This document shows positions 27,320 through 61,913 of a stretch of DNA of 64,000 nucleotides, one piece after another; within the stretch, counting starts at the first letter, position 1; the number at the start of each line of letters is the position of its first letter. Both the position numbers and the translations under genes were made by a program. This stretch comes from Candidatus Phytoplasma fabacearum. GTDB lineage: Bacteria > Bacillota_I > Bacilli_A > Acholeplasmatales > Acholeplasmataceae. The stretch lies in NCBI RefSeq assembly GCF_030586805.1, contig NZ_JAOSIM010000001.1, forward strand, positions 82,187 through 146,186, in the 5' to 3' direction. The notes beneath the pieces were generated by a model, which had not been told where the DNA came from, did not search any database, and worked only from the letters and a program-made list of their open reading frames with translations.

Positions 27320-28369
27320 TTATAAATTATTTGTATTTGGAGTTTTTTTATTAAATTGATAAATTATAAGTACAAATATTACTGTTATTAAAACGCATAA
27401 TAAATAAAATAATTTTGATGCAAAAGAACTGTTATTATTTGATGAAAATTTGAAATTATCTTCATTGTTACTACTATTATTAGTATCCGAATTATTATCA
27501 GTATCATTATCTAAAACTTTATTGATTTCTTCTTTTAATTCTTGGAAAGTGAGTAATTTTTCATCTAAACTTTCATTTATAATAGTTTGTAATGTTAGTT
27601 TTTGTAAATTTATTTCTTCATTTAATATATTTTGGCTTGTCAATTCTTGTTTTAATATTTGATTTATACTAGATAGTTTTACGCGAACACTATCCATTTT
27701 TGTTGTTAATTGGTCTTTTGATTTTAAAGTATTTATTTTATCCACCATGTCTATTAATAAGTTGTTTATTTTTGTGTAATCATTGTCTAAATCGTTATAT
27801 AATGTTTGGAAATCTTTTAAATTTTCTGTTAATGATTCGATAGTTGTTGGGTTATCTTCTTCATTTATATTTTGGAAGAATGTTATACTATCTTCTAATT
27901 TTTTTAATTTTTCATTGAAATATTTTGTTATTTCATTTTTTATATCTTCAAAGTTTTGTTGTGTATTTGAATCTTCTTGTTTTACTAAACCAATTATTGA
28001 AATTAATTCATTAACTATTTCATTTTTTTTGCTTTCTTCTGAATCAAATAATTGATTTTTTAGATTTTTAAATGCTTGTTGGTTATTGAAAAAATTTTTG
28101 ATATCTTCTTCGATAGTTTTGTATTCTTTTAGTAATTGATTGCATTTTTCTAGTAATGATTGATTTCTTGTTATTACTGGGTTATTACTCATTTGTGTTA
28201 AATATGTTAATATATCTCTGTCTTCTTCTTTTGTATTAGCTTTTAATGAAAATTTTGAATTTAAAGTTATGTAATTAATAGCAAATAATAATATTATAAA
28301 CGCTATTAAAATATTTATTAATTTATTAATATAAAAAAATTTTTTGATATTATTTATTATTTTAGGCAT
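27320..28369 (-). CDS. Coiled-coil protein with N- and C-terminal membrane segments
   Basis: I do not recognise this 349-residue protein. A hydrophobic segment near the N-terminus (about residues 17-35) and another near the C-terminus (about 318-340) flank a long, acidic, predicted coiled coil, followed by an Asn/Asp/Ser-rich linker (about 292-315). This is the same architecture as the AAA+ protein upstream, without the ATPase domain, so a partner or scaffold role is conceivable. GAAAGGAT is just upstream of the ATG on the minus strand. A surface protein at the host interface is another possibility. Confidence 0.7.
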   Translation of the reverse strand: MPKIINNIKKFFYINKLINILIAFIILLFAINYITLNSKFSLKANTKEEDRDILTYLTQMSNNPVITRNQSLLEKCNQLLKEYKTIEEDIKNFFNNQQAFKNLKNQLFDSEESKKNEIVNELISIIGLVKQEDSNTQQNFEDIKNEITKYFNEKLKKLEDSITFFQNINEEDNPTTIESLTENLKDFQTLYNDLDNDYTKINNLLIDMVDKINTLKSKDQLTTKMDSVRVKLSSINQILKQELTSQNILNEEINLQKLTLQTIINESLDEKLLTFQELKEEINKVLDNDTDNNSDTNNSSNNEDNFKFSSNNNSSFASKLFYLLCVLITVIFVLIIYQFNKKTPNTNNL

Positions 28370-28888
28370 ATATAAAATTTATCCTTTCATTCTTAAGATT
28401 AAAAAAGCAAAAACTTAGTATAACTGTTGATTATTTTAATCTTATACAAGATTAATTCTAACATAAAAATTTACAAATATATTTTTGATTTTTTAAAATT
28501 TTTTTTAAAATTAAACTATTTTGAATTATAATTTTTTCAATTTATTTTTTATTCAATATTTTTAAAATTATTAATTTTAATTTCAAAATAAAATGATGAG
28601 TTGGATTAAATAATTATTTTAATATTGACTTTAATAAATAATGTTGTTAGAATAAAAAGCAGTTTAATTAAATTTAATTTTTATATTTTCATTACTTTTT
28701 TGATAAATATTTTTAAAGTAATTTTTATAAGTTTTATTTAAATGTAAAAAAAAAATTTGAAACAAACTTTTTATGATAATTTATTATTTTTTAATTTATA
28801 TTTTACATTAATTTATAATTTAAAAATTTGTTGTTTTAATTTATTTTATATATTTTATATATTATTATAATATTTTACTATTCATTTA
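28370..28888. other. Intergenic region upstream of the tRNA cluster
   Basis: About 520 very A+T-rich bases with no gene. It contains one good promoter facing the tRNA cluster (28625-28653) and the upstream region of the divergent coiled-coil gene. Confidence 0.5.
28625..28653 (+). promoter_or_regulatory. Sigma-70-type promoter facing the tRNA cluster
   Basis: TTGACT (28625-28630) and TAGAAT (28648-28653) are separated by 17 bases. The distance to tRNA-Glu is about 235 bases, so another promoter nearer the tRNA may also exist. Confidence 0.45.
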
Positions 28889-28964
28889 GGCCCGTTGGAG
28901 AAATGGTTAACTCACATGCCTTTCACGCATGCATTCACGGGTTCGAATCCCGTACGGGTCACCA
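28889..28964 (+). tRNA. tRNA-Glu(TTC)
   Basis: Acceptor stem GGCCCGT pairs with ACGGGTC, anticodon stem CATGC/GCATG encloses CTTTCAC with anticodon TTC at 28922-28924, and CCA is encoded. It is intact and uninterrupted, unlike the next two tRNA genes. Confidence 0.95.
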
Positions 28965-28989
28965 TTAAGATTATTTTATTTTAAATATT

Positions 28990-30197
28990 GCACCCATAGC
29001 TCAACTGGATAGAGCATCTGACTACGGAGGGCGCAAAAGATGCGCATAATTCTGCTATTTAACGAATAGCCTTGTACGATAATTACAAGAGGTCACGTAA
29101 ACACCTCAAGGTGGGCTTGGTCAATTATTTCGAAAGATTTATTGACAATAGCAAAAGCACGCAAGCGAGATGAGACAAAATATCTAGTCAATAAGTCGAC
29201 GCTAGACCAGAAGTTAAGGAAAAGGTGAAAATCCCTAATCAGATAAAAAGCATGGTAATTTCAGAGACATCTTCGGAAAGATATTGATAAAAAAACCGAG
29301 ATTTTGAAGGTAAAGGATATAGATTCGTAGTATCTTTTAATTATCTGTAAAGTTAGTTGAACTAACTCTTCAAACAGCTATACTTATTCTTGTTTATCGA
29401 AAAAACACATTGATGATTCGATTTTAAAAAGAAATTGTAAACTGAACCTATAAACTTCACGTAGAATTATGTAGTAACTTTGATCTCCCTAAAGATAGGT
29501 TTTGAAAAAAACCTTAAAACAGCCAATAGATGCTGATCCAAGGGAAAAGTGAAACTTATAGTAGTCATAGGAATAATACTAAAATTGGAATATTTCAGGA
29601 TAACCCTATCAAGGAGAAGGATAATAACCTTTGCAAGGCGAAAAAGTTTCAATATCTTTCGTTTTTTATTAAAGATACTTATTAATTGGTAGTTAAAATT
29701 ATATTAGTTTGCGTTCAATTCCATTTGTAAAAGTTTGCGACTAAAATTAAAAAATTTTTTCTACAAAAATTAATAAATTATTTAATTATTATTTTTGTAT
29801 TTTATTTTTATTTATTTTTAAATTTTTTTAGGAAATTCCGGAGTAGATGGATAGATTTAATTTATAATTTTTTATCTTAAATAATTTAATTTATGTTAAA
29901 TTCCATCAAAAAATATGTTTAAAATCGATATAAACCTAAACCGGTTTAAAAAAAGAGCAAAGAAATAACAAAAATATACTTTTAAGATAAATTAGAAATA
30001 ATTTATTTAAGTCGATAGTAATAAAATTAATAAAGAAAAAAAGATATTAGGAGCCGGATGTTTGGAAACTTACTTGTCCGGTTCTGTGGGGGGCTAATTT
30101 CGAATAGGAAAGTTAAATTATATTTTTTAATTTTCTAAACCGATTTAATCTATCCCAATTCAGAAGGTTGGGGGTTCAAATCCTCTTGGGTGTGCCA
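28990..30197 (+). tRNA. tRNA-Arg(ACG), split by a group II intron
   Basis: Exon 1 is 28990-29028 (39 bases: acceptor GCACCCA, D arm, anticodon stem 5' half and whole loop) and exon 2 is 30160-30197 (38 bases: TCAGA stem half, variable loop, T arm, TGGGTGT, G, CCA). Joined they form a 77-base tRNA whose anticodon stem is TCTGA/TCAGA and whose loop is CTACGGA, anticodon ACG at 29024-29026. The insertion lies between positions 38 and 39. ACG tRNA with A34 edited to inosine usually reads CGU, CGC and CGA, so splicing would be needed for most CGN decoding unless a second copy exists elsewhere. The acceptor has a G1-U72 pair. Boundaries could shift by one base (37/38). Confidence 0.88.
29029..30159 (+). 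mobile_element. ORF-less group II intron in tRNA-Arg
   Basis: The 1131-base insert starts GGGCG (group II consensus GUGYG with G at position 2) and ends TCTATCCCAAT (AY end). Domain V is 30051-30084: 34 bases, with the AGC triad in GAGCCGG, a GAAA-containing tip and GGTTC closing. EBS1 TTCGTAG (29324-29330), in the loop of an AAGGATA/TATCTTT stem, pairs 7 of 7 (one G-U) with exon bases CTACGGA (29022-29028). EBS2 may be TCAGAT (29239-29244), complementary to ATCTGA just upstream of IBS1. Shared landmarks with the other copies are GTAACTT (29474) and TAGTAGTC (29559). The domain IV region (about 29650-30050) is A+T-rich with no reverse transcriptase. Splicing is inferred, not shown. Confidence 0.88.
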
Positions 30198-30212
30198 TTT
30201 TTATTTTTTTGT

Positions 30213-31109
30213 CGGGAAGTAGCTTAGTTTGGTTAGAGCGCCTGGTTTGGGAGGGCGAGAAAGATGCCTAAAATATTTAGTGGTTTTACCAACCATCGTC
30301 ATTATGATAATGTGACGCAACATATATCTGGTTGATTATTTCGAAAGATTAATTGATTATAGCAAGGTATAAAAGCGCATTGAGTAAAAAATATTTTTAC
30401 AATAAGTTTGTGCAAGTTGAATGATGGCTATGGATAAACTTTTTATAAAGTCTAAGAGAATGAAGAAATCTGTTTTAATAAAATTACTAAAATAATTAGT
30501 AATTTTTCAGTTTTATTTTAATTTGGTCCCAAGATTAAAATAATTATCACCTTTTTTGAAAAATCAAAAGGACTAGTTTCAAGATTCACCTATTATCTGT
30601 TTTTTGTAAAAAAAATTTGGATCTAGGTTATCTCACCTAAGGTCATTGGGTAAATATTTTAGAGTAACTTCTATCTCCCTAAACTGCATGATATTTTTGG
30701 AGAAAAATTTTAAATTTTGATTCAAGAAAAGTAGCAAGGGAAAAGCAAAACCATAGTAGTCATGGTGTATTTAAGGTAAGTTTTGGAATATTCTTATCAT
30801 ATGATCCCATTTAAGAGATTAGGAAAGCTAATCACAAGGCGAAAGGGGCAAGATAATTTCAGATCGGATATTAATTAATTTATATATTTTTAATATTTCT
30901 AAATTTAATAAAGTTTAAATTTTCAATAAGTTTAATTTAAATTTTATTTTTTAGAAAAATTGAAATTGAAATTATTTAAACGCCGTATACTTGGAAACTT
31001 GTTTGTACGGTGTTGTGTGGGGCTTATTGTAATAATGAATATTCTATGAAACGCAATAATTCTATCACGATCCAGGAGGTCGCGGGTTCGAATCCTGTCT
31101 TCCCGACCA
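30213..31109 (+). tRNA. tRNA-Pro(TGG), split by a group II intron
   Basis: Exon 1 is 30213-30252 (40 bases) and exon 2 is 31072-31109 (38 bases). Joined they give a regular 78-base tRNA: CGGGAAG pairs with CTTCCCG, the anticodon stem is CCTGG/CCAGG around TTTGGGA with anticodon TGG (30248-30250), T-loop GTTCGAATC, encoded CCA. The insertion is at 38/39, exactly as in tRNA-Arg, 15 bases upstream. A TGG tRNA can read all four proline codons in small genomes, so it is probably the only tRNA-Pro. One-base shifts of both junctions are possible. Confidence 0.9.
30253..31071 (+). mobile_element. ORF-less group II intron in tRNA-Pro
   Basis: The 819-base insert starts GGGCG and ends TCTATCACGAT. EBS1 TCCCAAG (30527-30533), in the loop of a perfect ATTTTAAT/ATTAAAAT stem, pairs 7 of 7 (one G-U) with exon TTTGGGA. 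Domain V is 30980-31013: here the triad is CGC and its partner has changed to GUG, so pairing including the central G-U wobble is kept relative to the AGC of the other copies. GTAACTT (30664) and TAGTAGTC (30754) match the sister introns. There is no internal ORF. It is well diverged from the tRNA-Arg intron, so the two insertions are not a recent local duplication. Confidence 0.88.
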
Positions 31110-31146
31110 TTTTTTATTATTTAATAATTTAATTATTTTCGTTTAT

Positions 31147-31221
31147 GCGAATGTCGTATAATGGTTATTACTCTAGCCTTCCAAGCTAGATATGTGGGTT
31201 CGATTCCCATCATTCGCTCCA
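31147..31221 (+). tRNA. tRNA-Gly(TCC)
   Basis: Acceptor GCGAATG pairs with CATTCGC, the anticodon stem CTAGC/GCTAG encloses CTTCCAA with TCC at 31180-31182, and CCA is encoded. Uninterrupted. It lies 100 bases before the orphan intron copy. Confidence 0.95.
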
Positions 31222-31323
31222 GTTTAAATTAAAATTTATACAATAATAATTTGTAGAATTTTATATAAATAAAAATATTTTTATTTTGGGAATTTAATTT
31301 TTAATTTATTATTGTATTCATTT

Positions 31324-31895
31324 GGACGCCAAAGAGGCCTGAATATCGTGTCATTTAACCAATGACCAGTGCGATAAACACTGTAAGGCTAAGAACGGTT
31401 CTTGAACGGAAACTCTCAGGAATTACAGCAGTTCTTAAAAGCGGGTTGCGACGAAGTAGTTAGTCAAGAAGATACCGCCACCAAATGGTTCTAAGGATAA
31501 GCCTGTAATGGCCTAAGAAGATAAGCAGATGTAATAATGAAACCTACTTCGCAAACTACTGTTAATCGAGTAGTCCGGAATCTATCAATATAGATATCTA
31601 ATATTGGATAGTTTATCAATTAACAAACCTGGAATCTCACCATTAACAAAATGGTTACTTCACCTAAGGAATCAAGGTAGATATTTAGCGTAACTTGGAG
31701 AATCCTAAAGGTCAGTTATTAAATTAACTAATAATGAGTTTAAAGTCATTAGGCCCAAGGATAAAGCGACTTCTTAGTAGTCGGAGGAGTAAAACTTGAT
31801 CTGGAATGATAAAGAGAATCGTCCTCCCTGGAATAAGGTTAACGACCTTGATAGGGCGAAAGAAGTCAGTAATTTATTGTTTGTTAGATAACTTA
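31324..31895 (+). mobile_element. Orphan group II intron copy lacking a clear 3' half
   Basis: The stretch aligns along about 570 bases with the rnpA intron (61135-61705), by eye about 95% identical, beginning GGACGCC against GGGCGCC. It includes GTAACTT (31690) and the EBS1 loop, where the heptamer differs (TATCTAA at 31595-31601 against TAAAAAG). A hairpin near the 5' end changed on both sides together (GTCATT...AATGAC against GTGATT...AATCAC). The match ends where domain IV begins; no domain V with a paired triad follows. The 5' flank (TTCATTTG) does not pair with its EBS1. It is probably an inactive remnant not interrupting any recognisable gene. Confidence 0.8.
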
Positions 31896-32885
31896 TTAAA
31901 AGAAATATAAATTTTTGCGAATATTATTCCTGTAATTAAAAAAAATTTAATTAAGAAGGTCATAGAATACTTATTAACTCTCTCTTTTTTGATTTAAGTT
32001 TCGTATTTATAACTCTAAAATATCTTGTTGTTTACTATATAATCCCAAAAATACTGTAATTATAAAGTTAGTAAAAATATCATAAATTTGAATACCTAAC
32101 CTTCTAGCAGAATATATTCTGCGGATTATTATTAGTTTCAAATGAAAATTTTATATAGCTAAAAATTTAAAAAATAAAATTTACTGAAACAGTATTTGTA
32201 AAAAAATTATCATTAAATATAAATCTCAAACTAATTTCTGTCTAGGAAAAACCCCATTTTTATTTTACATGGTTAAGTTAAATCAAATCGTTTTATTAAT
32301 AGTCCAAATGTTAAATCTTACTAACTTCCCCTTTTTTAATAAAAAGGTTTAATTTTAAACTTTTAACAATAAAGATTAAAAAATATGGTTAAGAATAGAT
32401 ATGTATTCAAGGTAAAAAATAATTTTAACAAACAATTGAAAATTAGTTAATAGATAAGCATTAGAGACATTTCTGAATTATAAAAGTTCTAAATTGATTG
32501 AAAAAAATGTAAATTTTTCCGAAATTTACAATAGCTAATTATTATAAATTTATCATATGAAAATGACCGATATAATAACTGGTGTTGTATATAAATTAGA
32601 AATAAATAATGATTATGTTATGTAAAAAAATTGCTATTATCAGATAATTCATCAATATATTCGCTGATATTAAATAATTTAATTAAATAAGAAGAATAAG
32701 AATAAATAAATAATTAGTGGTTGCAAAAATTTAGTCTTTGCAAGAAGATAAATTTATGAAAATTCGGATGCCGGAGAACTTGATCTTTTGATTTGGATTT
32801 AGGATCTTTTAATAAATATCATAAAAACAAATTCGGTTATTGAAATGAAAAAGATCTATATTTATTAAAGCTATTTTGAATATGC
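31896..32885. other. Unassigned region after the orphan intron
   Basis: Nearly 1 kb without an open frame of note on either strand. It may be decayed domain IV of the orphan intron, possibly a dead intron-encoded protein gene, followed by a decayed 3' end: CGGATGC...GAACTTG at about 32764-32782 faintly resembles the 5' half of domain V (CCGGATGC...GAAACTTG), but the 3' half does not pair. I could not recognise reverse-transcriptase motifs. Confidence 0.4.
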
Positions 32886-32914
32886 TTGACATTCTTATTA
32901 TATTTTAATATAAT
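32886..32914 (+). promoter_or_regulatory. Consensus sigma-70 promoter of rplM-rpsI
   Basis: TTGACA (32886-32891) and TATAAT (32909-32914) are exactly 17 bases apart. The leader to rplM is about 220 bases. Confidence 0.8.
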
Positions 32915-33144
32915 TTGGTTATATTCGTTTTATAACGATTTATCTCGTAATTTATAACTTTTTGTTGATATTTTTTTATATATTTAATTAAATTTTTAGT
33001 TATTAAAATTTTAAATTTTTTATTTTTATTAATTTTTAGTTTATAAATCAATTTTATCTACTTATTATTAACACTATTATAAAATAAATTTATTAATTAA
33101 AATATTTTTATTAATTTATTTAAATGGAGATTTTTTTTTAATTT

Positions 33145-33624
33145 ATGACTAATAATGCTACTACAGTTCTTTATAATAAAAATTTAACTGATTTAAATCG
33201 TACTACTAGCATGAGTGAAAATTATTTGAGAAGAAAATGGTATATTATTGATGCTAATCAAAAAATTTTAGGAAGAATAGCCACTAAAATTTCTGCTATT
33301 TTGATGGGCAAACATAAAACTTTTTATACTCCTCATATTGATAATGGTGATTATGTGATAGTCATTAATGCTAAAAAAATTGCTTTAACAGGTAAAAAAA
33401 TTTATCAAAAAAAATATCATAGACATTCAGGATACCCAGGTGGTTTGACACAAGTAAAATTTACTGAGATGATGCAAAAATTTCCTAATAGAATAATCGA
33501 AAAAGCAGTTTTTGGTATGTTACCTAAACATAAATTAGGTCGAAAGATAAGAAAGAAATTGTTTGTTTATGCTGATGATATTCATAAACATAATGCTCAA
33601 AATCCAGAAATTTTAGAGGTGTAA
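33145..33624 (+). CDS. rplM: 50S ribosomal protein L13
   Basis: The L13 core starts near residue 27 (RRKWYIIDANQKILGRIAT) and includes GDYVIVINA and the MLPKH(N)KLGR region. The 25 residues before it are longer than usual; an in-frame ATG at 33211 (MSENYLRRKWY) is an alternative start, but ATGGAGA just upstream of 33145 supports the longer form. It is followed after seven bases by rpsI. Confidence 0.93.
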   Translation: MTNNATTVLYNKNLTDLNRTTSMSENYLRRKWYIIDANQKILGRIATKISAILMGKHKTFYTPHIDNGDYVIVINAKKIALTGKKIYQKKYHRHSGYPGGLTQVKFTEMMQKFPNRIIEKAVFGMLPKHKLGRKIRKKLFVYADDIHKHNAQNPEILEV

Positions 33625-60884: not shown

Positions 60885-61913
60885 ATGATGAAAAAAAAAT
60901 TTATTTTAAGTAAAAATAAAGAAATTAATTTAATTTTCCAAAATGATAATAAAAGTGTAGCTAATTATTTTTTTAAAATATATTATATCCATTATGCTAA
61001 AACTTTGAATTTTAAATTTGCTTTAAGTATTAACAAAAGATATGGGAAGTCTCATGAGAGAAATTTAATTAAACGTCGTATAAGAGCAATCATTTATAAT
61101 TATTCTTCAGTTTTAAAACCTAATGTTTTTTTTAGGGCGCCAAAGAGGCCTAAATATCGTGTGATTTGACCAATCACCAGTGCGATAAACACTGTAAGGC
61201 TAAGAACGGTTTTTGAAAAGGAAACTCTCAGGAATTACAGCAGTTCTTAAAAGCGGATTGCGACGAAGTAGTTAGTCAAGAAGATACCGCCACCAAATGG
61301 TTCTAAGGATAAGCCTGAAATGGCCTAAGAAGATAAGCAGATGTAATAATGAAACCTACTTCGCAAACTACTGTAATCGAGTAGTCCGGAATCTATCAAT
61401 ATAGATAAAAAGTATTGGATAGTTTATCAATTAACAAACCTGGAATCTCACCATTAATAAAATGGTTACTTCGCCTAAGGAATCAAGGTAGATATTTAGC
61501 GTAACTTGGAGAATCCTAAAGGTCAGTTATTAAATTAACTAATAATGAGTTTAAAGTCATTAGGCCCAAGGATAAAGCGACTTCTTAGTAGTCGGAGGAG
61601 TAAAACTTGATCTGGAATGATAAAGAGAATCGTCCTCCCTGGAACAAGGTTAACGACCTTGATAGGGCGAAAGAAGTCAGTAATTTATTGTTTATTGATA
61701 AATTATGGAAAGCCGGATGCTTGGAAACTTGCTTGTCCGGTTTGGATGGGGGCTATTTGTAATAGTTAATAGAAAAACAAATCCTATTAATAAAACGCAA
61801 ATAATCTATCCATATTTATTATTATTAAACCGACAGCAAAAAAATTGAACTTTGTCGATTTATCTGTAAAATTGTCAGTTTTATTGAGAAAATCTCGTCT
61901 TATAAGTTCCTGA
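60885..61913 (+). CDS. rnpA: Ribonuclease P protein component, split by a group II intron
   Basis: RnpA assists the RNase P RNA in 5' tRNA maturation. Exon 1 (60885-61134) encodes the N-terminus including the RNR-type motif HERNLIKRRIR; exon 2 (61816-61913) encodes IIIKPTAKKLNFVDLSVKL and the final RKSRLISS before TGA. Both are needed for the fold. The exons total 348 bases, and joining at 61134/61816 keeps the frame (…NVFF-IIIIKPTAKK…), giving 115 residues, the family length. Unspliced, translation would stop 11 codons into the intron, giving a 94-residue protein without the last strand and helix. rpmH is upstream and yidC starts 20 bases downstream. Confidence 0.9.
61135..61815 (+). mobile_element. 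ORF-less group II intron in rnpA
   Basis: A 681-base insert beginning GGGCGCC and ending TCTATCCATAT. EBS1 TAAAAAG (61406-61412), in the loop of a CAATA/TATTG stem, pairs 7 of 7 (one G-U) with exon TTTTTTA (61128-61134). Domain V is 61710-61743, 34 bases, AGC triad with the G-U wobble kept. GTAACTT (61501) and TAGTAGTC (61586) match the tRNA introns. Domain IV is minimal, without an ORF. About 570 bases are nearly identical to the orphan copy at 31324. Frame restoration in rnpA gives an independent check on both boundaries (shift of one base possible). Confidence 0.9.

Follow-up and report, generated by a model that had tools for sequence, protein, structure and literature searches.

In the 64,000-nucleotide window of Candidatus Phytoplasma fabacearum analysed here (contig NZ_JAOSIM010000001.1), the adjacent genes for tRNA-Arg(ACG) and tRNA-Pro(TGG) are most probably each interrupted at tRNA positions 38/39 by a group II intron without an open reading frame (ORF). 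As judged from the sequence, usable tRNA would likely be obtained by ribozyme splicing, with exon-binding sequence 1 (EBS1) of each intron reading the anticodon loop as its intron-binding sequence 1 (IBS1). The features of the two genes are listed below. Handles such as G011 denote genomes in a survey of 29 phytoplasmas that includes the source genome (G000).

28990..29028, +, 5′ exon of tRNA-Arg(ACG), 39 nt, to tRNA position 38 (ARAGORN with introns; exon 100% identical in G011, G018 and G025)
29029..30159, +, ORF-less group II intron of tRNA-Arg(ACG), 1131 nt, start GGGCG, end CAAT (ARAGORN; domains V–VI, RF00029, 47.7 bits)
29324..29329, +, predicted EBS1 TTCGTA, pairing with IBS1 TACGGA (tRNA positions 33–38) with one G-U (EBS1 scan)
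30051..30084, +, domain V of the Arg(ACG) intron, 34 nt (Rfam RF00029, fold, covariation)
30152, +, predicted branch-point A in domain VI of the Arg(ACG) intron, 8 nt from the 3′ end (TCTATC invariant in 13 aligned introns; position by eye)
30160..30197, +, 3′ exon of tRNA-Arg(ACG), CCA encoded (ARAGORN, joined-exon score, relatives' matches)
30213..30252, +, 5′ exon of tRNA-Pro(TGG), 40 nt, to tRNA position 38 (ARAGORN with introns, relatives' matches)
30253..31071, +, ORF-less group II intron of tRNA-Pro(TGG), 819 nt, start GGGCG, end CGAT (ARAGORN; domains V–VI, RF00029, 43.4 bits)
30527..30532, +, predicted EBS1 TCCCAA, perfect complement of IBS1 TTGGGA (EBS1 scan)
30980..31013, +, domain V of the Pro(TGG) intron, 34 nt (Rfam RF00029, fold, covariation)
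31064, +, predicted branch-point A in domain VI of the Pro(TGG) intron, 8 nt from the 3′ end (TCTATC alignment; position by eye)
31072..31109, +, 3′ exon of tRNA-Pro(TGG), CCA encoded (ARAGORN, joined-exon score, relatives' matches)

Both genes were reported by ARAGORN when introns of up to 3 kb were allowed in the 64-kb window: tRNA-Arg(acg) at 28990–30197 with a 1131-nt insert and tRNA-Pro(tgg) at 30213–31109 with an 819-nt insert. Run without introns, the program found four tRNA genes in the window and missed both, as the original prediction had expected of tools that look for whole tRNAs. Neither the reversed window nor any of 20 shuffles of the window in three-base blocks produced a tRNA call in the intron-allowing run. 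The joined exons score as valid tRNAs of 77 nt (Arg) and 78 nt (Pro), the lengths that had been predicted, and align from nucleotide 1 or 2 to the end with intact phytoplasma tRNAs, with identities of 92–96% in 18 of the 29 genomes (Arg) and 91–96% in 21 (Pro). Across 12 fetched loci, the Arg alignments are gapless with an intact junction; those of Pro, likewise over 12 loci, contain one 1-nt gap at nucleotide 22, in the D-loop, and none at the junction.

Group II character of the inserts

Domains V–VI were recognised by the Rfam model RF00029 (Intron_gpII, gathering score 40 bits) at 30049–30159 in the Arg insert (47.7 bits) and at 30978–31071 in the Pro insert (43.4 bits), and both matches abut the 3′ exon exactly. 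What the original prediction had stated, namely group II introns at 38/39 in both genes, insert lengths of 1131 and 819 nt, a 34-nt domain V and 3′ ends in A plus pyrimidine (..CCCAAT and ..CACGAT), was borne out in each particular. The domain V fold has z-scores of −3.7 (Arg) and −3.4 (Pro). When 19 pairs of domains V–VI were followed through 13 aligned introns, 95.1% of the cells were paired, with 38 double-changed cells and double changes in ten of the pairs; controls with slid partners gave at most 47.8% paired and at most 4 double-changed cells. In domain VI, the sequence TCTATC is invariant in the 13 introns, and helix 3 is 100% paired with compensatory changes. The branch-point A of group II introns lies in domain VI, 7–8 nt from the 3′ end, and the A predicted here, at 8 nt, falls within that range. 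All 33 introns tabulated in the source genome and its relatives end in AT. This table omits the chimeric loci of G013 and G026 and, partly because no single contiguous copy was available, Arg(TCT) of G011 and G018, the second Arg(TCT) of G026, Asp of G025, Arg and Trp of G021 and Asn of G004.

The fit between introns and exons was assessed within nucleotides 255–420 of the introns. A perfect Watson–Crick 6-nt EBS1 for the intron's own IBS1 was present in 21 of the 33 introns, as against 81 of 986 pairings of an intron with a foreign IBS1 and 332 of 6600 shuffled segments; counted by distinct IBS1 sequences, 11 of 17 have a perfect EBS1. The position-limited count is preferred, as the unrestricted scan includes chance sites, and in many introns 20–30% of foreign IBS1 sequences equal the intron's own. 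Joining the exons yields valid tRNAs for 29 of the 31 tRNA introns, and the other two share one tRNA-Phe gene that becomes valid once both are removed. ARAGORN labelled the D-loop-split Arg genes of G004 and G017 as Ser(gct) and the Pro gene of G025 as Ser(tga); these labels were rejected as wrong, and bounds were set from the exons.

Two other classes of intron were considered and rejected. No group I family matched at its gathering score in the window, nor at E ≤ 1 in 28400–33200, and among the plastid tRNA group II families the best domain V model reached 29.2 bits, with a cut-off of 61. The Rfam scan of the window returned tRNA and Intron_gpII over cut-off and no other RNA family.

Split tRNA genes in the source genome and in other phytoplasmas

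By its RpoB, which over the best segments shares 99% identity with the protein of 'Bonamia sp.' little leaf phytoplasma and 96% with that of Ca. Phytoplasma australasiaticum subsp. taiwanense, the source phytoplasma is assigned to group 16SrII or its vicinity. Domains V–VI gave 53 matches in its genome, 51 over the cut-off. Intron-allowing ARAGORN was applied to 30 stretches selected to cover the domain V and tRNA matches and to the window (31 sequences). It found tRNA-Thr(TGT) and tRNA-Leu(TAG), both split at 38/39, by inserts of 839 and 780 nt, respectively; tRNA-Arg(TCT), split in the T-loop at 54/55 by an 818-nt insert, was spotted by eye. With Arg(ACG) and Pro(TGG), at least five tRNA genes of this genome are split. 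A whole-assembly search with each of the five joined tRNAs detected no intact copy, only the two halves and weaker matches to other tRNAs, so that neither tRNA of the original prediction has an intact counterpart in the assembly. The genome contains 27 distinct intact tRNA genes (27 Rfam matches over cut-off), none for Arg or Pro. Every Arg and Pro tRNA gene found in it is split, and the introns would need to be removed before protein synthesis. Intact and split genes together number 32, a usual value for phytoplasmas (31–35 in the available text of PMC3633829 and PMC8632452); this total is uncertain, since the intact genes include three for Val(TAC) that may be repeats, two of these lying close to the ends of contigs.

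Seven of the 28 other phytoplasmas have split tRNA genes that can be read within one stretch; G021, with exons on separate contigs, is not counted among the seven. Eighteen of all 29 genomes have an intact Arg(ACG) gene; five (G000, G011, G013, G018 and G025) have it split at 38/39 and two (G004 and G017) within the D-loop; G021 has two halves on two contigs, G026 has the 5′ half only, and two genomes gave no match. For Pro(TGG), 21 genomes have a whole gene, four (G000, G011, G018 and G025) have one split at 38/39 and G013 has one split in the T-loop, with the 3′ part only in G026 and no convincing match in two genomes. For Leu(TAG), 17 genomes have an intact gene, six a split one (G000, G011, G013, G017, G018 and G025), and in six it is absent or weakly matched. 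Thr(TGT) is intact in 14 genomes and split in G000 and G017, and the other 13 have partial or weak matches or none. Arg(TCT), intact in 23, is split in the T-loop in G000 and G025, and G011 and G018 have pieces compatible with that split; the G026 gene is interrupted at about 31/32, a site that the pieces in G013 fit. Split genes were also found for Asn (G017 and G026) and Asp (G025, in the T-loop).

Domain V was matched in 27 of the 29 assemblies and the reverse transcriptase (RT) profile RVT_1 in ten, all of them among the 27; many of the remaining assemblies with domain V carry one to four matches. Eight genomes of other genera of the same family gave no domain V match. According to the intron tree (MAFFT alignment, 1040 of 1770 columns kept, some forks open), the Leu(TAG) intron of G017 is from a different family than that of G000. 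Because both the sites and the intron families differ between lineages, Leu(TAG) of G017 and G000 included, intron insertion very likely happened repeatedly.

Genome G025 is NCHU2014 (CP040925.1), published as one circular chromosome and a plasmid (PMC8632452), and it has only split copies of Arg(ACG), Pro, Leu(TAG) and Arg(TCT). For Thr(TGT) it gave no strong match, and its segment G025:C1:532500-536500 (reverse of 1480–1770 there) contains sequences resembling tRNA-Lys and tRNA-Ala that appear decayed by eye; in a chromosome described as complete, this may point to further hidden split genes or to tRNAs that have been lost. RVT_1 matches number 28 in G025, 10 in G011 and 6 in G018, several of them fragmentary or with stops, which suggests in-place decay of the mobile intron family in these three genomes.

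Several observations weigh against functional tRNA genes with group II introns. The source assembly (568,901 bases in 51 contigs) is only 83% complete, so an intact tRNA copy may have escaped assembly. Two adjacent mismatches open the upper stem of domain V in both the Arg and the Pro intron, as in six of the 13 aligned introns overall. The 5′ end of group II introns follows the consensus GUGYG. Both window introns begin with GGGCG instead; among the 33 introns this start occurs in 30, GGACG in two and GTGCG in one, and the deviation at position 2 extends to the maturase-bearing intron. Six of the 17 IBS1 sequences lack a perfect EBS1, scoring 10/15 to 15/16 with G-U allowed; they include that of the window Arg(ACG) gene (13/15, one G-U), and Thr of G017 has the poorest fit (10/15). 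The best EBS1 of the T-loop Arg(TCT) introns scores 13/17 at a site outside the expected region. Finally, the introns compared are related and are not independent tests, so that the EBS1, covariation and exon figures describe rather than prove.

The incomplete assembly leaves room for an explanation in which the inserts are dead insertions and the tRNA genes are pseudogenes, the cell using unassembled intact copies or, as phytoplasmas live inside host cells, imported host tRNAs. This is considered improbable, as NCHU2014, published as complete, also has only split copies of four of these genes. Furthermore, the exons are nearly invariant while the introns drift: between G000 and G011, G018 and G025, 36–38 of 38 exon nucleotides are identical, and the introns are 83–97% identical (nine comparisons). 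Most introns have also kept a fitting EBS1, and domains V–VI covary.

One assembly, G013, appears to hold a twintron in a tRNA gene. Its Arg(TCT) 5′ half is followed by the start of an outer intron, into which a complete group II intron of 791 nt that has a separate domain V (L288:4891-4978, 43.9 bits) is inserted; the outer intron then resumes and ends in a domain V of its own (54.7 bits). The EBS1 of the inner intron, TTAACG, fits the outer sequence preceding the insertion with one G-U. This copy of the nest joins a tRNA-Phe 3′ exon and so may lie on a chimeric contig. Contig C11 of G013 shows the same start, and about 1.1 kb upstream of it is duplicated on C1 at 95.6%. Mismatched exon pairs across one intron are Arg 5′ with Phe 3′ (G013:C1, locus L288, 3950–5760 reverse), Thr 5′ with Asn 3′ (G013:C18) and Arg 5′ with Pro 3′ (G026:C3). 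These pairs may represent misassembly between near-identical introns, real intron-mediated recombination or trans-splicing partners.

Such pairs, along with the repeated nature of the introns, are what an artefact of assembly or contamination might produce, for instance plastid sequence joined to bacterial contigs. For the split genes as a whole this is very improbable. The same sites and neighbours recur in four assemblies (G000, G011, G018 and G025), both exons derive from one bacterial tRNA, the flanks are bacterial tRNA and protein genes, and the plastid domain V models stay far under their cut-off, as stated above. Genes for tRNAs split by group II introns, whose splicing is predicted, are a real feature of several phytoplasmas.

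Maturases and the proposed splicing pathway

Neither tRNA intron of the window contains an RT, and they do not have the form of a mobile retroelement with an RT/maturase in domain IV. In the whole source genome a single RT match was found, an intact maturase gene of 576 amino acids in a 2480-nt intron of asnS, the gene for asparaginyl-tRNA synthetase (AsnRS). The protein comprises RT, domain X and HNH parts, matches TIGR04416 with 305.4 bits (cut-off 300) and has LtrA as its best match of solved structure. Two further pieces of domain X lie on contigs C25 and C6, the latter with stops. A second protein gene, rnpA, for the RNase P protein, is interrupted inside the window (region 60885–61900); its 5′ part matches positions 1–77 of 109 of Pfam Ribonuclease_P, and its intron groups with that of asnS in the intron tree.

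G000:C1:36101-38580, maturase-bearing asnS intron (RT search)
61135..61815, +, group II intron of 681 nt interrupting rnpA (RF00029, 49.0 bits at 61708–61815; IBS1 TTTTTA, EBS1 TAAAAA)

The split genes stand in a Glu-Arg-Pro-Gly cluster with two intact neighbours.

28889..28964, +, intact tRNA-Glu(TTC), upstream neighbour (ARAGORN)
31147..31221, +, intact tRNA-Gly(TCC), downstream neighbour (ARAGORN)

The following pathway is proposed. The cluster would be transcribed as a whole and the tRNAs cut from the common precursor. Each intron would fold onto the anticodon loop through EBS1–IBS1 pairing, and lariat splicing would be followed by RNase P and other maturation steps. The asnS-intron maturase, with its LtrA-like RT, domain X and HNH parts, may assist the ORF-less introns in trans, in the manner of organellar matK-type maturases. 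Inosine editing of A34 in tRNA-Arg(ACG) would have to wait for splicing, because the anticodon arm is not whole in the unspliced precursor. Such a pathway would be knotted, given that rnpA and asnS, the genes for the RNase P protein and AsnRS, themselves lie behind introns in this genome.

Alternatively, splicing may proceed without any intron-encoded protein (IEP), by self-splicing or with general RNA-binding or host factors, the asnS maturase serving only its own family. We regard this as a real possibility, if somewhat short of an even chance. The tRNA introns fall into families separate from the asnS and rnpA introns, and 17 of the 27 assemblies with domain V lack an RVT_1 match, four of them with 8–52 domain V matches: G013 (52), G026 (14), G021 (8) and G017. 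Domain X above cut-off was likewise not found in G004, G013, G017, G021 and G026. However, a maturase is present in G000 itself, and three of the four intron-rich assemblies without RVT_1 (G013, G026 and G021) are in 9 to about 20 contigs and could miss an RT. A plasmid copy is also possible, and strongly diverged maturases may evade the models.

Genome G017 is a single contig of 511,268 bp, in which profile searches found neither RVT_1 nor domain X. All ten of its domain V matches lie in tRNA genes, nine in number and each split: Phe (two introns), Ala, Leu(TAA), Thr, Trp, Leu(TAG), Gln, Arg(ACG) and Asn. tRNA-Phe is valid only with both introns removed. The Thr intron is the weakest of the ten, as the 5′ part alone, read on into the intron, reaches a tRNA score of 44.6 bits. 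A search for intact copies in G017 covered Arg(ACG), Leu(TAG) and Thr. In the tree, the Ala intron and the T-loop intron of Phe are identical, and both have GTTCGA, which belongs to the T-loop, as IBS1; retrohoming is therefore suggested to have copied this intron between T-loops.

Concerning the history of these introns, they may have spread from mobile copies by retrohoming and retrotransposition and stayed longest in tRNA genes, because exact intron loss would be rare and tRNA loss lethal. In some lineages the tRNA introns would remain with the RT no longer found, a splicing-only state resembling that of organelles. It is, on balance, favoured that retroelement introns have turned into such splicing-only residents of tRNA genes in some phytoplasmas. 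In G017, where ten introns sit in nine tRNA genes and no maturase was found, all decoding by those tRNAs would depend on ribozyme splicing unaided by an intron-encoded protein, and another relative would carry an intron within an intron in a tRNA gene.

Relation to known introns and to published tRNA counts

Group II introns in tRNA genes are typical of chloroplasts and have very rarely been reported in bacteria. The original prediction held that all known bacterial tRNA introns belong to group I; this was mistaken, as the single-copy tRNA-Ile(CAU) gene of Thermosynechococcus elongatus contains a group II intron, TeI4h (PMC2882425). According to the available text of that paper, TeI4h resembles the introns described here in that it pairs well through EBS/IBS and occupies a bacterial tRNA gene that is single-copy and putatively essential. 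It differs in being confined to one tRNA gene and having its own ORF, whereas the genomes described here have five or more split tRNA genes each, with ORF-less introns at several positions and relatives lacking a detected RT. As to the suggestion that a bacterial set of this kind is undescribed, no report of a set of group II introns in phytoplasma tRNA genes was found in the literature searched, which lacks most subscription papers and all bioRxiv preprints. The set itself is larger than the two genes first noticed, with at least five here and nine in G017.

Organellar tRNA group II introns, such as plastid trnK/matK, are similar in interrupting essential tRNA genes and in having few maturases for many introns (PMC4424553, available text), but the present genome is bacterial, and the plastid domain V models did not match above cut-off. 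Bacterial group I tRNA introns (PMC3984707; Thiomargarita and Beggiatoa, PMC4853749; parts of these papers) also hide tRNA genes from annotation; unlike them, the window has no match to a group I family. Within the same genus, OYPI1, OYPI2 and the ORF-less intron of the flavescence dorée (FD) phytoplasma are known, the ORF-less ones being thought to be helped in trans, but a location in a tRNA gene is not reported for these in the available text (PMC4299374). The RNA of the FD intron is described there as the most expressed transcript.

A 2015 review, in its available parts, states that bacterial group II introns reside for the most part in places other than housekeeping genes; that introns without an ORF are rare and almost always accompanied by a related IEP in the genome, with C.te.I1 of Clostridium tetani as the sole known exception; and that bacterial twintrons are intergenic or outside housekeeping genes, with little apparent effect on gene expression (PMC4424553). 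The phytoplasmas described here appear to depart from all three statements. G017 resembles the C. tetani case of an ORF-less intron in a genome without a related IEP but, unlike that single exception, would have ten such introns, all in tRNA genes. These phytoplasmas might offer a recent, repeated and bacterial model of how a mobile retroelement becomes a splicing intron dependent on its host, a transition otherwise inferred from organelles.

Published 16SrII genomes have 24–27 tRNA genes, compared with 31–35 in the other phytoplasmas tabulated (PMC8632452, PMC3633829), and counts of 24–27 appear in the accessible text of PMC8632452, PMC10868231, PMC3633829, PMC12454383 and PMC10353367. NCHU2014 has 24, a number that its authors point out as the lowest (PMC8632452), and an average of 28 is given for 178 drafts from several groups (PMC10999746). 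Split genes would explain the low annotated numbers in 16SrII phytoplasmas. A term search did not find 'intron' in the main text, as available, of the genome papers PMC8632452, PMC10868231, PMC3633829, PMC10999746, PMC12454383 and PMC10353367, and phytoplasma is not mentioned in the main text of a 2022 survey of prokaryotic group II introns (PMC8919778).

Two further observations concern the surroundings of the cluster. A reading frame of 349 amino acids at 27320–28369 on the minus strand, located between tRNA-Ser and tRNA-Glu, gave no match to Pfam at E ≤ 0.001. About 100 nt past tRNA-Gly, at 31324–31920 and on to about 33100, the window contains the 5′ part of a group II intron similar to that of rnpA (GGACGCCAAAGAGGCC...), with no domain V match, which is probably a decayed copy.

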